Assembly (NCBI GenBank): GCA_943704525.1 | Contig: CALSCQ010003206.1 | Coordinates: 1 to 21,753, forward strand | Reading direction: 5' to 3' | DNA: 21,753 nt | Origin: Pigoraptor vietnamica | Taxonomy: Eukaryota; Opisthokonta; Filasterea | In this document: piece by piece, positions 2,742 to 21,136 of the stretch | Layout of the letters: each line of letters opens with the position of its first letter | Position numbering within the stretch: position 1 is the stretch's first letter | Translations under genes and position numbers: made by a program | The notes under the pieces: generated by a model | Seen by the model: only the letters and a program-made list of their open reading frames with translations | Databases searched by the model: none | Told to the model about the DNA's origin: nothing

Positions 2742-5293
<2,552 letters not shown>

Positions 5294-5912: not shown

Positions 5913-6824
5913 ATGGATAACGTGAACCCCACTATATATGAGGCCAGTGCGGCGCGCCCTGTGACCGCGAGCGAGGAGGATGAAGGCGTGTACGACCCCG
6001 TCGATCGACGCGAAATCTTCGATATCCGCTTGCCTTCTTGCGCGCGTGTGTGTTGCCAGAGTGTGGGCTTAAAGACAGACGTATTCCCTTGACTGCGAAT
6101 GTGCGCACATCTCATCAGGTGCATCAACGACCCCGAGCACCCGCTGACGCTCGAAGAGCTGAAAGTGGCGCAGGAAGCGCACATTGAAGTCGACGACGAC
6201 CAGAATTTTGTGCGCGTGCAGTTCACGCCGACGATTCCTCACTGCAGCATGGCCACCCTTATCGGGCTGTGCATCCGCGTCAAGCTGTTGCGGTGCCTTC
6301 CGGAGAGGTTCAAGGTGAGTGTGCAAGCGAACACACAAACGGCATACCTTTGCCTGGTGGCAGCGGACTGTGAGCACGAATGGTAAAAAAATTGCCCCTG
6401 TTTGCGATGGGATTCGAACTTACAACTCACCTCCTTGTGTGCAGATTGATGTGTCTATCCGGCCGGGGACGCACGCGTCTGAAGAAGCCGGTGCGTGGCA
6501 TCTCTTGCGTTGCTGTTGTTGCCGTGCAGTGGAACCGCCTCTCGGTTTGGAGGGAAAATGCGGTTGGATCATCCATACCCTGTGTTTGTTTACTCTACTC
6601 CACTCGAAACACTGTGATCGCCTGTGATTCCCCCCTGCGATCCCCTGCTGCAGAGTTGTTATCCAAAACTCGTTGTGTGGTGTTATGTTCATGTTCGTGT
6701 TTTTTGTTCCTTCGCCACTACAGTAAACAAGCAATTAAACGACAAGGAGCGAGTGGCGGCTGCTCTCGAGAACGGTCATCTCCTGGAGGTCGTCAACCAG
6801 TGCTTATCGTCCAAGTCCGCGTAA
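5913..6824 (+). CDS. CIAO2B: CIAO2B / MIP18-family cytosolic Fe-S assembly factor, complete (4 exons)
   Basis: CIAO2B (FAM96B/MIP18) is part of the CIA targeting complex with MMS19 and CIAO1, which hands Fe-S clusters to cytosolic and nuclear proteins such as DNA polymerases and helicases. Exons are 5913-6021, 6109-6314, 6445-6490 and 6724-6824, joining in phase to 153 residues. Visible hallmarks are ERPVTA-like [31 protein letters not shown] across the first junction, [15 protein letters not shown] with the conserved DUF59 cysteine at about residue 82, and [20 protein letters not shown] near the C terminus. The start ATG at 5913 matches the usual N-terminal length. The first intron has AT-AC ends with minor-spliceosome signals and is the only join that restores the family sequence. 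The other two introns are GT-AG. The stop TAA at 6822-6824 overlaps a GTAAGC donor-like sequence. Confidence 0.94.
6022..6108 (+). other. U12-type AT-AC intron in CIAO2B
   Basis: This 87-base intron begins ATATCCGCTT and ends GCAC. The first six bases equal the minor-spliceosome donor consensus (ATATCCTT). TTCCCTTGAC at 6084-6093 matches the U12 branch-site consensus (TTCCTTRAC) closely. The branch A at 6092 lies 16 bases from the intron end, within the usual U12 spacing. Splicing here gives [15 protein letters not shown] with no indel, as in the CIAO2B family. No GT donor near the exon end can do this. Confidence 0.87.
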
Positions 6825-13518: not shown

Positions 13519-16237
13519 TCAGAGAGTCCACAAGACCGAGGCTGCCTTCTCGTCCCCAGCCTCTGCCGCACGCCTGAGCAGCTCATTGCCACGCTGCTCA
13601 TCCATTGCCATCCCAAACCCGCCCAAGTAGCACTTCCCGAGCAGCGCGACTGTCTCCGCGGTCGGGAGGTGGTAGTCGACGACCCTCTTCAGCCACTTGA
13701 ACGATTCTGTCACGTCCCTTTCGACGCCGTCGCCCACGCCCAGAATTGTCGAGAGCCGCTCCATCGCCTCCAGGTCGTTCAGTTCGGCCGCCTTCCGCCA
13801 GAGGCGCACGGCGCGCGCAATGTCCTTCTTCACGCCATCTCCTTGCTCCAGCGTAGTAGCGGCAGCGCACAGCGCGCCCGTGTGCCCCGCCTCGCCCGCG
13901 CGCTCAAGCCAGACGAGGCCCTCTGCCACGTTCTGTTTCACACCGCAAAACCCCTCGCACAGCATCATGCCATAGGAGAACATTGCTTCTGGCCCGCTCC
14001 GCCTCACACCAACCTGTAACCGAGGGCCATACGTCGGGCTCCAGGACGCCCTTATTGTGCAACATCACGAGCGCCTTCTGCGCGTCAACGTTGCCGCCCT
14101 CCGCCATCAGCAGCAACCAGCGGACAATTGCCCGCACATCCTTGCAGTTCTTGCCCTTCGTGGCGGCAGCCGACAGATGTTGACCGTAGAATCGAATTGC
14201 CTCGCCGTCGCCACGCGATGCAGCCGCAAAGCGCTCCGCGTCACTCCATCCATCAAACCGAGGGTTCACACAATCGAGCATGTTCGCGATGTTGTCCGCC
14301 TCCGCGTGCCCCGAGAACCGCCGACTCGCGCACAAGGCGCCGCACCTCGTCCAAGTTCTTCGGCAGAACGCCCGCTACGCCCGTCAGGTGCAGGCACCCG
14401 TACAGGAGCATGCCGGTGGGATCCCGCATCGCCGACGAACGCCTCACAAGCTCGACAGCCTCTTCCGGCCCCGACGTGTGCCGCATCCAGGTTTGTCGGA
14501 TCGCCACAAAATTTTTGTAGAGATTGAAGCTCGCCGGCAAAATTTTCTCGGTACGGCTGGCATACAGCGCGTACAGCACATTGCACGAGGCGGCGTGACC
14601 TGCGGCCGCGGCGTGGCGTAGGCGGCGCATTCCCTCGGCCACGTCCTGTCGAAAGCCATTGCCTAAGAGACGTTGCAACCCCTCTGCGTGCAGGGCCGCG
14701 AGGTCCACAGTTGCTGGCTGCACGTCGGCTGTAGGAGCTCGCACGGGCGAAGTAGGGCTTCCCTCGGGCGGGTAAGACCTGTCGCCCAAGAACTGAAGGC
14801 ACTCCGGCGGCATCTGCGAAGGCGAGGCCAAAAATTCAGCCGCACCCACGTCCCCAGCTTCCGCCGCACGCCGCATCAGCGCCATGCCGCGCTGAGCGTC
14901 CTTCGCCACACCCTTGCCGAAGATGTACGCCGCCCCGAGCATCCTGACCGTCTTCGCGTCCTGGCCGGTGATAGTCGACCACCTTCTTCAGCCACGCGAA
15001 CGCTTCGGCCTCGTTCCTCTCGACGCCGCACAACGCCACCGAGAGCACGGACGCGAGCCCTCCCATCGCCTCAGAGTCGTTCAAGTCGGCGGCCTTTCGC
15101 AAGTGACGCACGGAGCGCGCCAAGTCCTGTTTCCCGCCCTTCATCATGAGGACGGTCGCGGCGGTCGTGAGGGCCTTTGTGTGCCCCGCCTCGCCAGCGC
15201 GCTCAAGCCAGACGAGGCCCTCAGCCTCGTCCAGCTCTGCGCCGCGCGACCCCTCGCACAGCATCAGCCCGTAGCTGTACTGGTCCAGCCGATCCCCTTC
15301 CATCGCCTCCAACCGATGCCACTGGGTAACGGCCGGCTCGACGTCCTTGTCCAAAGCGCCCATGTCGTGCAGCCGCACGAGCGCCCTCTGCGCCGCACGG
15401 TCACCGCGCTCCTCCGCCGCCCACTTCAGCCAGAGCACTCCCTCCCGCACGCGGTCGTTCCCCTTTTCCTCGGCGAGTTGCTCCAGTCGCAAGCCGTAGC
15501 ACCGAATCGCATCCGCGTCACCGCGCACCGCAGCCGCGTAAACGTCGTCGACGCTCATTCCGTTGAAAGGAGTCTGCGTATACTCCATCTCCCTCACCAC
15601 GTGAGTCGAAAACTCGTGCCCGAGAGCGGCCGACTCGTGTACCATGCGAATACCTTCGACGCGAACCTTCGTGAGGATACCCGGCACGCCCTTCGTAAGC
15701 AGCGTTCCGTAGATGAGCAGGCCCACCGGATCCCGCACCTCCGCCGATTGCCTCGCGAGCGCCACCGCCTCGTTATTAAGCTCCTTCAGCAGTTCCTCAC
15801 TCCGGCACGGCATCTTCGTTGACTTGCAGGTCGAGTAACAGCGCCGCAAGCGTGTTGCACGAGGGTATGTGGCCAGCAGCCGCGGCACGGCGAAGAATGC
15901 GAATACCCGCGGACATGTCCTTGCGAATTCCGTGGCCGTTAACGAGTTGCACCCCATGGGCGTGCAGCGCGGCGAGGTCAACCACCGGCGCCGACTCTGT
16001 CGCTGGATGCGCGTTAACACTTGAAACGCTTGTTAGAAACGAAGCACCGCCCTTCGCGTCGGTGGAAACACAACGAGCGCTCAGCGACGAATGGGAGCGC
16101 GCGAACCCCACGAAAGCAGGAGTGCGATGCGCAGTCGCGTGGAACGGAGGGACGTCGAGGGCGACAAGCGACGACCGCGTGTTACCGACGCGCCGCAGGG
16201 GCACGGCGCGCGCCGCCCTCAGACACAGCCGCAGCAT
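13519..16237 (-). CDS. Double-module Sel1-repeat protein interrupted by four apparent +1 frameshifts (possible pseudogene)
   Basis: Sel1-like repeats are TPR-related helical pairs that scaffold protein complexes. Reading from ATG 16237 to stop 13519 needs four frame changes, near 15802-15806, 14960-14968, 14309-14312 and 13993-13995. Each skips one base in the same direction. With them the frame is 904 residues and intronless, unlike its neighbours. Sel1 units are clear, for example EGLVWLERAGEAGHTKAL, DAQRGMALMRRAAEAGD and NELLRRAAEAGDEKAA. The protein contains two homologous modules: DLAALHAHG (from 15979) and DLAALHAEG (from 14705) start equivalent segments about 424 codons apart. They are joined by a P/S-rich linker of about 40 residues with no stop. 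The N-terminal 60 residues are rich in R, A and S and poor in acidic residues, so a mitochondrial presequence is plausible. Frameshifts could be real lesions, sequence errors or recoding; the sequence cannot decide. The gene is divergent from MOV10. Confidence 0.8.
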
Positions 16238-16854: not shown

Positions 16855-19800
16855 ATGGCCAACCCGCCGTTTGCGCCGCCGGCGTGGCAGTGGCCCCCGC
16901 ACCCAGTGCGCGCCCCACTCCCCCTTCCCCTTCCGCCGGGCCTCGAGCACATCAGGCCAGCACCTGCGCTACAATGGCAGCCTGTGTGGAGGGCTCCTTG
17001 GGCAGTGCCGTACCCCGCGCCGCTCGGGCTGCCACCGGGGCTGTTTCCGCAGGGAATGATGCCTCCCGTGCGGCCGATGCGACCCCCGTTCCCGTGGAGG
17101 GACACGGGGGATGCACCCGGCCAAGCGTCCGCTGTCCACGTAACGGGCGGTGGCGGCGGCCCCACGGGTGCCCCGTCGCGCAAGGGTGCGCGCGCAAATG
17201 CCGACGCATTTCGTGCGGCAATCGCTCGCCTTGACCGTGCGTTTGCGTCGTCGATAGCGGAGGTACGTTGTGAGCAGCCCTCATACTGCACAATGTGCTT
17301 CTCTAGGGAAAGATCACGTTGGGACGCTGTGTTGTGCTTGTTAACACGCGCTCTTGCGTCTGTCAGGGTGACAAGGCCCTTGGTCAGTTCGCGGCTGCGG
17401 AGGCGGACCATTTCGCGCTGCACTTGCGCGCGGACACCCACGAGACGGTGTTGGGCAATGACCTCGACTTTGGCCGGTTCGAAGCAGGCGCGACAACAGA
17501 TCCTGTCCTCAAGACACTGCGCGTGTACAACACGAGCGAACAGGCGCGTTCCATCGTCGGCGTCTTCTACTTCCCGCAGCCCGACGAGATTTCGCTCCAC
17601 CTGGAAAACTTCGGCATGTCGCGCACGCGGCCGCACGCGTACACCCCTTCGAAAGACGAGCCCGTGCAGGTGCGGCCGAGGAGCGTCTTGGAGCTCCGCA
17701 TTGTGTGCAGGGCGAGCACGGCCGAGGGCCTCAAGCGCGTCCACGTGTTTGTCGCCTTCGACAACGGCCTTATTCTGTCACGGAAGGTGCTGGCGCTCAT
17801 GGCAAAGCCCGCTGTGAACGGGAAGAAGTCACTCGACCCGCGAGCGGCGGAGTACGGTGAGTAGCATGTGCGCGGAGCTGCGTAGACATGGTTGTGGCTG
17901 TCTGGAACTCCCTAATCTCTCCTTCTTGCAGTGCCGCAACGTGCGCAGACAGGCACGGCGATTCACACGCACGTAGCTGGCGAACCGCCCCCAGTTGCGA
18001 TGCCGCCCGGCCCGACGTCTGCTGCTGCGTCCAGTGCCGAAAGCCTGCGCGAAAGTCTGCGACGCTTGAAGACTCTTTCGCCGGAGACTTATTACCAGCA
18101 CTTTTCCACGCTCGTGGAAGCCGAAGGTAGTCTCGTCCTTCTGTCGACTTCTCTCCCTGTGTGTGTGTGTTCGTCGCATTGCTCATCCGCATCGTCGGTT
18201 GTTCCGTGAGCTTTCCATTCGATGATTCTGATGCGCTTGCAGACTTTCAGATGCGCCGCGACATCCGCGCGTACGATATCCCTTCGGCCGAGCTGCGCAA
18301 GGATCCCGCGAGGTACGCCAGCGCGCGCGTTGTATGTTGTGCGTAGCATCGTGTTGTGGTGTGCGTACGACGGGCACTTGTCTGTTGGCACTGCGGTGGG
18401 CGCATTCTTCATCCCCTGTGTCTTACGGTGCGCTCGTTCAGGGTGTCGCTATACACGCTCCACGTGCCGGGTCTACTTGAGTCGCGCCCACCGATTGGAT
18501 ACGGCGACTTGGTGTACCTTTTCAGCGAGGGCGTTGCCTTTGACGCATACGTGCACGCGTGAGTGCGGCGGAGATGTGCATGTTGCCAGTTGTGGTCCAC
18601 GGCAGTGCGTTGTGATTCACTAATGGCGCAGTTGTGTGTGTGTGTGTGTGTCTGTGTCTGTGTTGTGTTTGGGTGCTAGTGAGCGCAGCGTGTGTGCTTG
18701 CGTGATGAATTTGTGTCGGTGTTGACGTCTGTAGATCGTCTCACGCTCACTTGCAACATTCCAAGCACCAAACACACACATACGCACACACCCATACACA
18801 GAGACATCTCATTCCATCACTTCCTTTGGCACAGGGTCGATCGCAAGAAGGAGATGGTGTGGCTTTCCGTCGGGAGCGGCCACCTGAGACCGGCGTCCGA
18901 CAGCACGTACTACGTCCAGTTCACCGTCAACCATCAGGCGATGTATGAAGTGAAGCGGGCGCTGTCTTTTGCGTCCCCACTCCTCACTTCGCAGTTCGCG
19001 TTCCTGCGGCGGCGTCTGTTTCCCACTGCGGCGGACTTCACGGGCACGTGGAGGAACGGCCTTCGCCTTCACATCGACCCGCCCTTTCCGTTCGACTGGG
19101 ACCAGCGAAAGGCGATACAGGCGATCGTCTATTGGGAAGCCCATCTCCCGCTTGACGGCGCCCCCTTTGTGCTGCACGGCCCGCCGGGCACGGGCAAGAC
19201 GTGTGTGATTGTGGAGACAGTTGCGCAGGCGAGTGCGCGTTTTTACTTTTGTGTTCTTTCTGGGACTCCGTCCGCCGCCGCACTTTAGCCTAATGGCTCG
19301 GCGCATCTTGACCACTTGCGCAGATACTGCTGAAGAAACCCGACGCACGCATTCTCGTCGCGGCGCCCAGCAATGCCGCTGCGGACGTTCTCTGCGCGCG
19401 TCTCGCGACGCGGTTGAAAAGCGAGATCTCGCAGTCGGTGGGCCATGATGCGCGAGATCTTTGGTTTGAATGGTGTGTGGTAGGAGAGCGAGACTGTTAA
19501 CACTGCGTCTATTGCGCAGCCGCGCATGCTATTCCGGCTCAATTCGCACACGCGGTTCATCCAAGAAGTGCCACGCCAGCTTTTGGCCTTCTGCCACATC
19601 GACAACAGCAGCGGATTCTTTGCCGCGCCTCCGCTGGACGACCTGCAGGGGTGGGTTCGTGAGGCCTGCTGTTGTTCGTTCTCGTGCCAGTGGTTTCGTG
19701 AGGCCTGCCGTTGTTCGTTCTCGTGCCATGCCGTCTCACGCGGTACCCAATCGCAGGCGGCGCGTCGTCGTTTCCACGTGCGTCTCTGCGGGCCTTCTCG

Positions 19801-21136
19801 TGAACGCGGGGATCGACTTCCACCACTTTGCATTCATCTTCGTGGACGAGTGCGCGCAGGCAACTGAGCCCGAGGCCCTCGTGCCGCTGTCGCTTGCGGG
19901 TCCCAGCTGCCGCGTCGTCCTGTCCGGCGATCACAGCCAGCTTGGGCCGTCCATTCGGAGCAACGTGTGTATCTCGCTCGGCCTTGGAATGTCTCTCCAA
20001 GAGCGCATCATGCGGCGTTACGTGGCGTTTGAGCACGAGGCGAACGGGAACGTCCACTGCCCGCATATGCGCCTGAGCACAAACTTCCGCTCGCACGGCC
20101 CCATGTTGTCTGTCCCTTCGGCGCTCTTCTACGGCGGCGAGATTGAGGTTGCGCCCGACGCCGACGACGTCGCGCCGCTCCCGTGGCTTCCCAACCCGCG
20201 CTTTCCGCTCGTCTTCTATGCTGTTCAGGGCGAGGACATCCCGATGGGCAGCTCGGTCGTCTCGTACAGCAATCCAATCGAGGCGCTACTGATCGCCGAT
20301 ATCGTCGAGCGCGTGTACGAGAGTTTTGGCAACGCGGGAGATACAGCGGGGCCTCACGACGGGCGCGACGACGTCTCCGGCGTGGCTACGGGGGACGTCG
20401 TTGCGCATGGACGGTCTCAGGAGCGGCTGCTGCAGTCGGACATTGGCGTCATCAGTCCCTTCCGCGCGCAGGTCAAGCTCATCCGTCAACTGCTGCGCAA
20501 CCGGTCGCTCTCCGGGGTGGATGTGGGCACCGTCGAGGACTATCAGGTGGGACCCCGATGCATCCGCGTCGCCGTCTTGCGGAATGGGTGTGCGTGTGTG
20601 CTGGACTCACCATGCGAGTTTGTCCCCAGGGGCAAGAGCGCAAGATCGTCGTCGTTTCGACGGTGCGGTCGCACGGCACGTGGCTGGCGTATGACCGGAG
20701 GAGTGGGATGGGACTCCTCAACAACTCGAAGCGCTTCAACGTCGCAATCACACGCGCGCGCTCCCTTCTCATCGCCGTCGGGAACCCCGCCATCCTCGCG
20801 CTGGACGCGAACTGGCGCGCTTTCCTCTCGCACTGCGCGGGGCACGGGTCTGTCATGGGAGCGGCGCCCTCGGGCATTCTCGACTCGTGTGCCAAGCACG
20901 CCACGCCCAACGAGGGGCGCGCGCTTCTGAGGGCTATTGAGAAGAAGCAGGCTGACGCGGCCGCGATGTCGACGCTTGCGCCCTCGCGCTGCCTGGGGGC
21001 TGCGGCGGAGGGTGAGGACGAGGCCATTCTCACCCCGGATGACGAGGACGCGGACGCCGGTTTCGACGACGACGGATGGACTGGCATGGGCGCGTCGGTC
21101 TATGCAGACGACAAGGAGTGGCGCTACGTGCTCTGA
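16855..21136 (+). CDS. MOV10: MOV10/SDE3-family SF1 RNA helicase, complete (10 exons)
   Basis: MOV10, SDE3 and Armitage are UPF1-like 5'-3' RNA helicases acting in RNA silencing, mRNA decay and control of retroelements. Exons are 16855-17262, 17367-17856, 17932-18126, 18243-18312, 18442-18558, 18835-19228, 19324-19437, 19520-19650, 19757-20546 and 20630-21136. They join in phase to 1071 residues. Residues 1-120 are proline-rich and probably disordered. Residues about 150-280 form a beta-rich domain (LDFGRFEAG, LRVYNTSEQARSIVGVFYF) like the MOV10/SDE3 N-terminal domain. Helicase motifs are all present: Walker A GPPGTGKT (542-549), Ia APSNAAADVL, Walker B DECAQATEPE (from 670), III GDHSQLGP (from 697), STNFRSH, V GTVEDYQGQER (about 896-906) and VI NVAITRAR (from 940). 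The C terminus is acidic. Intron 6 is GC-AG, and intron 8 starts with a duplicated splice donor. The catalytic core looks intact and active. Confidence 0.92.
18631..18665. repeat. (GT)n microsatellite in helicase intron 5
   Basis: A GT-rich tract lies within the 276-base intron 18559-18834. A CA-rich stretch follows at about 18773-18800, so the transcript could form a GU/CA hairpin. Confidence 0.9.
19229..19323 (+). other. GC-AG intron in MOV10-like gene
   Basis: The exon ends CAG and the intron starts GCGAGT, a GC donor in an otherwise strong context, and ends GCGCAG. It is 95 bases long and phase 0. Family conservation (ETVAQ then ILLKKPDARILVAAPSN) fixes both ends. No nearby GT gives the same frame. 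Confidence 0.85.
19651..19728 (+). repeat. 39-base tandem duplication that begins exactly at a 5' splice site
   Basis: Two units of 39 bases, 19651-19689 and 19690-19728, differ at two positions. The first base of unit one is the GT donor of helicase intron 8 (19651-19756), so unit two carries a second donor (GTGGTTTCG). Use of the second donor would add exactly 13 codons in frame with no stop. Confidence 0.9.

Follow-up and report, generated by a model that had tools for sequence, protein, structure and literature searches.

The CIAO2B gene in the stretch of DNA analyzed here (21,753 nucleotides, hereafter the window) is interrupted by an intron with AT-AC ends, the donor of which carries GC at positions +7 and +8. 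TT at these positions is the textbook consensus of U12-type introns; it is the commonest form elsewhere and no strict requirement. The locus raises the question of whether the intron belongs to the minor spliceosome and, in that case, of how its donor would be read. Few parts of splicing are as strongly conserved as the donor of minor introns and the RNAs by which it is read.

A U12-type intron in CIAO2B

The gene, modeled in spliced form and supported by its homologues, and the signals of the intron that interests us are arranged as follows.

5913..6824, forward strand: CIAO2B gene, four exons, 153 amino acids
5913..6021, forward strand: exon 1, whose last base opens codon GAT (phase 1)
6022..6029, forward strand: intron donor ATATCCGC, the putative lineage form with G7 and C8
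6084..6093, forward strand: intron branch site TTCCCTTGAC, branch A at 6092
6107..6108, forward strand: intron acceptor AC, 16 nt past the branch A
6109..6314, forward strand: exon 2
6315..6444, forward strand: intron 2, ordinary GT-AG (GTGAGT...GCAG)
6445..6490, forward strand: exon 3
6491..6723, forward strand: intron 3, ordinary GT-AG (GTGCGT...ACAG)
6724..6824, forward strand: exon 4 with stop codon TAA

Among the best 120 of 6,724 matches, the top relative of the protein is P0001 (EukProt) from Opistho-2 (Pigoraptor chileana), identical at 138 of 153 positions (90%) without gaps, and the next-best relatives are mostly animal, which disfavors Parabodo as the source of the DNA. Pigoraptor comprises two species; Opistho-2 is described as a clone of P. 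chileana (PMC7147346), and both Pigoraptor genomes are described as coming from cultures that also contained the kinetoplastid Parabodo caudatus (PMC9492541). The closest relative of the FKBP12 of the same genome is again from Opistho-2 (89%). These similarities suggest that the window comes from a filasterean, probably Pigoraptor vietnamica. The match to galla-2 in the PDB (6tbl_C) spans residues 2-151 without gaps (E 1.1e-66), compared with residues 33-148 for FAM96A (E about 1e-42). This full-length homology indicates CIAO2B rather than CIAO2A, and the comparison with galla-2, of the MIP18 family, revealed no notable difference.

The intron occupies positions 6022-6108 of the forward strand (87 nt) and contains an in-frame TGA at 6090-6092. 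It starts with ATATCCGCTT and ends with TATTCCCTTGACTGCGAATGTGCGCAC, in the context CTTCG/ATATCCGCTT...TATTCCCTTGACTGCGAATGTGCGCAC/ATCTC. The original prediction of an AT-AC intron at this place in CIAO2B agrees with the sequence, including the 16 nt between the branch A and the terminal AC, and the join of 6021 to 6109, which had been said to restore the protein exactly, yields a 153-aa model that aligns without gaps to the P. chileana protein and to galla-2. The AT-AC ends fall at this junction fixed by the protein; three registers of the join (AT-AC, TA-CA and AT-AT) give an identical CIAO2B protein, AT-AC being the sole standard one.

The donor core at 6022 is ATATCC, the RTATCC form found in U12-type introns, and GC follows at +7/+8 in the place of the consensus TT. 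Aligned from its 3' end, the branch motif reads CCCTTGAC, with one mismatch to TCCTTRAC, and lies near the 3' end of the intron as in U12-type introns. The motif proposed at 6084-6093 is U12-like as claimed, but it is not an exact TTCCTTRAC, since it holds one extra C. The branch site alone is no proof, because the window contains 24 one-mismatch TCCTTRAC sites when 21.4 are expected by chance. Of 20,000 dinucleotide shuffles made from the intron body, 32 contained a CCTTRAC whose A lay 9-18 nt from the end, and the donor adds a second match with its ATATCC; over the whole window, CCTTRAC occurs twice on the forward strand and never on the reverse one, and ATATCC four times and once, respectively. 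Judged from these signals, 6022-6108 is almost certainly a U12-type intron. In the cell it would be removed by the minor spliceosome, with the U12 snRNA pairing with CCCTTGAC around the branch A at 6092. The original suggestion that the efficiency of minor splicing may influence Fe-S delivery concerns this gene.

Further candidate minor introns and their donors

The genome to which the window belongs consists of 32,526,649 bases in 1,395 contigs. The textbook pattern ATATCCTT...TTCCTTRAC had no match in it and none in the control. The pattern ATATCCNY...CCTTRAC...AC, which fixed +1 to +6, left +7 free, accepted only C or T at +8 and required a final AC, had 15 matches at 13 donors, L010 and L012 being second ends of L009 and L011, compared with 2 matches in the reversed control. 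Nine introns were kept, eight of them with GC at +7/+8 and the ninth with GT. The +7/+8 bases of the four dropped donors were CC, AC, CT and TT: L004 offered no open join, and L013, L016 and L018 had some open joins with an upstream side that, by eye, was not coding-like (repeats or unlike protein). GC was present in 8 of 9 kept and 0 of 4 dropped donors (Fisher P 0.007), a contrast that is weak because the drops were chosen by visual inspection and the donor sequences were visible meanwhile, as they were when the other joins were judged.

A scan with a stricter branch site, TATCNNN...TTCCTTRAC, in which +6 to +8 were free, had 12 matches, fewer than the 20 of its control. It provided three usable introns: two GT-AG introns with GTATCCGC and, via an internal match, one AT-AC intron with ATATCCCC. 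The match L021 lies inside the L007 intron; L019, L022, L024, L025, L026, L027, L029 and L030 were dropped.

The genome thus contains 12 candidate U12-type introns, that is, 11 besides that of CIAO2B. The joins of seven are supported by homology (CIAO2B, FKBP12, DMC1, urocanate hydratase, SGF29, a PI3-kinase-like protein and a CaM-lysine methyltransferase-like protein), and the other five (L007, L008, L014, L015 and L028) have an open frame and the signals as their sole basis. Pfam gave no match for L007 and L028 and matches of E 0.05 to 0.12 only for L008, L014 and L015, and L008 had no useful match in the PDB. In the DMC1 gene (L009, upstream of reverse-strand position 1500), an apparent micro-exon of 8 nt (GGCACATT) separates a GT-AG intron from the U12-type intron.

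G occupies +7 in 11 of the 12 introns (P 1.1e-5 given the 29% G of the intron interiors), in 10 of 11 when CIAO2B is left out (P 3.5e-5) and in 6 of the 7 supported by homology (P 0.003). C occupies +8 in 11/12 introns, the pattern having admitted no other base than C or T there for 9 of the 12, and +6 in 12/12, fixed by the pattern in 9. Position +9 is mixed. At +10, 9 of the 12 have C, so not every donor bias need mean pairing. No intron of the 12 has TT at +7/+8, that is, ATATCCTT. The distance from the branch A to the intron end is 11-16 nt in all 12, and the ends are AT-AC in 10, a share that is uninformative since 9 come from a pattern requiring AC. Of the two explanations that had been offered for the departure at donor positions 7-8, a tolerant pairing or a consensus proper to the lineage, the second agrees with these counts (G7 in 11/12, C8 in 11/12, no TT): RTATCCGC appears in all likelihood to be the donor consensus of this lineage, replacing ATATCCTT.

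Minor snRNA genes

The organism had been predicted to keep U11, U12, U4atac and U6atac. Three of them were found in the genome, each as one full-length match above the Rfam gathering score and each with matches in 0 of 14 control genomes: U6atac (81.4 bits), U12 (73.8 bits) and U4atac (64 bits). U11 was not found in this search. The U12 contains GAGUAAGGAA, its branch-pairing side being in the usual form; the CCTTRAC branch sites of the introns reflect the choice of scan pattern. Paired with each other, the genome's own U4atac and U6atac give a 17-bp duplex of -31.1 kcal/mol. The duplexes with consensus partners reach -20.0 and -24.6 kcal/mol, and that of consensus with consensus -30.2 kcal/mol. 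The greater strength of the genome's own duplex over those with consensus partners indicates that U4atac and U6atac changed together. The 5' end of the genome's U1 is the usual AUACUUACCU.

A shared upstream element and the search for U11

The element GTCCCAYAAG, which resembles the plant upstream element RTCCCACATCG, precedes U6atac and U4atac by 67 bases each and U12 by 72. It also precedes U1, U2, U5 and two Y RNA-like genes, the loci with the element before snRNA or Y RNA-like genes being L001, L002, L003, L034, L040, L078, L082 and L090. Both Y RNA-like genes (L034, 1435-1508, and L040, 1426-1506, each on the reverse strand) have a TATA-like box and end in a run of T, besides carrying the element. 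The Rfam family ceN72-3_ceN74-2 is matched by L034 above its cut-off (41.4 bits), and L040 matches Y_RNA at 29.7 bits, below the cut-off of 38.

Rfam gave no U11 up to E 10, with 39 of 1,226 first-look candidates scored. The element followed by GCGG had 15 matches (control 10), which yielded the two Y RNA-like genes and no U11; with an Sm site it had 2 (control 2), namely U4atac and one chance match; and with GGG and an Sm site it matched U4atac only (control 0). The element alone occurs at 78 places (control 49), the sequences of which were all inspected; Rfam scans of 75 of them, three at the gathering threshold only, revealed no U11 (L072, L086 and L114 were left out). These places included U1, U2, U5, U12, U4atac, U6atac and the Y RNA-like genes. 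U4 and U6 were likewise absent from the matches of this route, with the same 75/78 places scanned, and the miss of U11 is therefore no evidence of its absence.

Predicted pairing of U6atac with the donor

In human cells, compensatory mutants described in PMC4980772 show that GG14/15 of U6atac and GG6/7 of U11 pair with CC5/6 of the donor. In the register given there, positions 13 and 12 of U6atac would face donor positions +7 and +8. Positions 12-16 of U6atac read GCCGA in this genome (G12, C13, C14, G15, A16) and AAGGA in the Rfam consensus. G7 can pair with C13 and C8 with G12, and C14 opposes C6, present in 12/12 introns, without pairing. The computed duplexes with donors of 8 nt are weaker for the genome's own U6atac than for the consensus one: -1.7 versus -3.3 kcal/mol with ATATCCGC, -1.5 versus -3.3 with ATATCCGT and +0.3 versus -2.9 with ATATCCCC. 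The genome's own U6atac is favored only with the CIAO2B donor, which was given as 10 nt (-4.6 versus -3.3 kcal/mol). A fully compensatory change of U6atac is countered by the C6 mismatch and by these energies.

Several scenarios may explain this state. One is that the donor, read by U11 and then by U6atac, would have shifted from ATATCCTT to RTATCCGC with G12 and C13 of U6atac pairing with C8 and G7 in what may be a compensatory change, that C14 of U6atac would no longer pair with C6, and that U11 probably changed too. The evidence for compensation is mixed, and we regard it as an even question whether donor and U6atac changed in concert. It is plausible, and put forward more tentatively, that the whole minor 5' splice-site code was rewritten in concert, the donors passing from ATATCCTT to RTATCCGC, U6atac from AAGGA to GCCGA and U11, by prediction, from AAGGG to GCGGG, with the branch site and U12 as before. 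In U11, the predicted change would put GC where positions 4-5 from the 5' end otherwise carry AA, the unchanged form being AAAAAGGG.

Alternatively, U11 or a U11 protein could by itself account for G7 and C8, the changes at positions 12-14 of U6atac being independent drift in a helix for which few pairs suffice here. The C14 opposite C6 and the weaker computed pairing with 8-nt donors speak in favor of this scenario, and we estimate that, given three changed bases, two would fit by chance about once in 9 cases. Nevertheless, G12 and C13 of U6atac, opposite the two unusual positions of the donor, are exact complements of the bases there, and the pairing with U4atac shows that U6atac is under selection; we hold this scenario to be possible and lean somewhat against it. 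A mere GC-rich drift at +7/+8, at positions no longer read, would suit the composition of the window (58.5% GC) and the C at +10 in 9/12 introns. Yet +7 is G rather than C in 11/12 even though the introns contain 29% G and 31% C, and +9 is mixed, which makes such a drift improbable. AT-AC introns of the U2 type exist and the TA-CA and AT-AT joins would give the same protein, but a U2-type intron, or splicing in another register, is highly improbable in the case of CIAO2B given the joint presence of an ATATCC donor and a U12-type branch site at 16 nt, the minor snRNA genes in the genome and the usual U1 5' end AUACUUACCU, which is presumably a poor partner for ATATCC. Taken as a whole, a minor-spliceosome intron with a donor consensus shifted in its lineage is very probably the best explanation.

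Comparison with known systems

The intron shares with the U12-type AT-AC introns of animals and plants the AT-AC ends, the ATATCC core, the CCTTRAC near the 3' end, phase 1 and the accompanying U12, U4atac and U6atac, and differs from them by GC instead of TT at +7/+8. The human U6atac/U11 suppressor mutants of the P120 assay, as described in PMC4980772, likewise combine an altered donor with altered facing snRNA bases; nevertheless, those are laboratory mutants at +5/+6, whereas the present change is natural, lies at +7/+8 and leaves one of the facing bases mismatched. In Physarum polycephalum (Larue 2021, as cited in PMC10639083), minor splicing is reported to have been transformed, likewise at the level of a lineage, but with a great gain of minor introns; in the present genome there is no sign of many. 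The main text of the pan-eukaryote survey PMC10639083 makes no mention of Filasterea or Capsaspora, and our literature search, outside of which most subscription journals lay, revealed neither a description of Pigoraptor minor introns nor one of a GC donor consensus.

If the donor consensus is indeed the lineage's own, the minor splicing code can drift, and such introns would score low in callers based on fixed motif matrices, which intronIC is described as using (PMC7367187). It would also be a natural test of how far pairing with U11 and U6atac constrains the donor, and a rewriting in concert, if true, would parallel in nature what the compensatory-mutation experiments did in human cells.

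The window also contains other genes: exons of a V/A-type ATP synthase subunit (2745-5157, reverse strand; ATP-synt_ab_N and ATP-synt_VA_C), long frames encoding Sel1-repeat proteins (13522-16032, reverse strand) and a UPF1-like superfamily 1 helicase (18683-20927, forward strand; AAA_11 and AAA_12).
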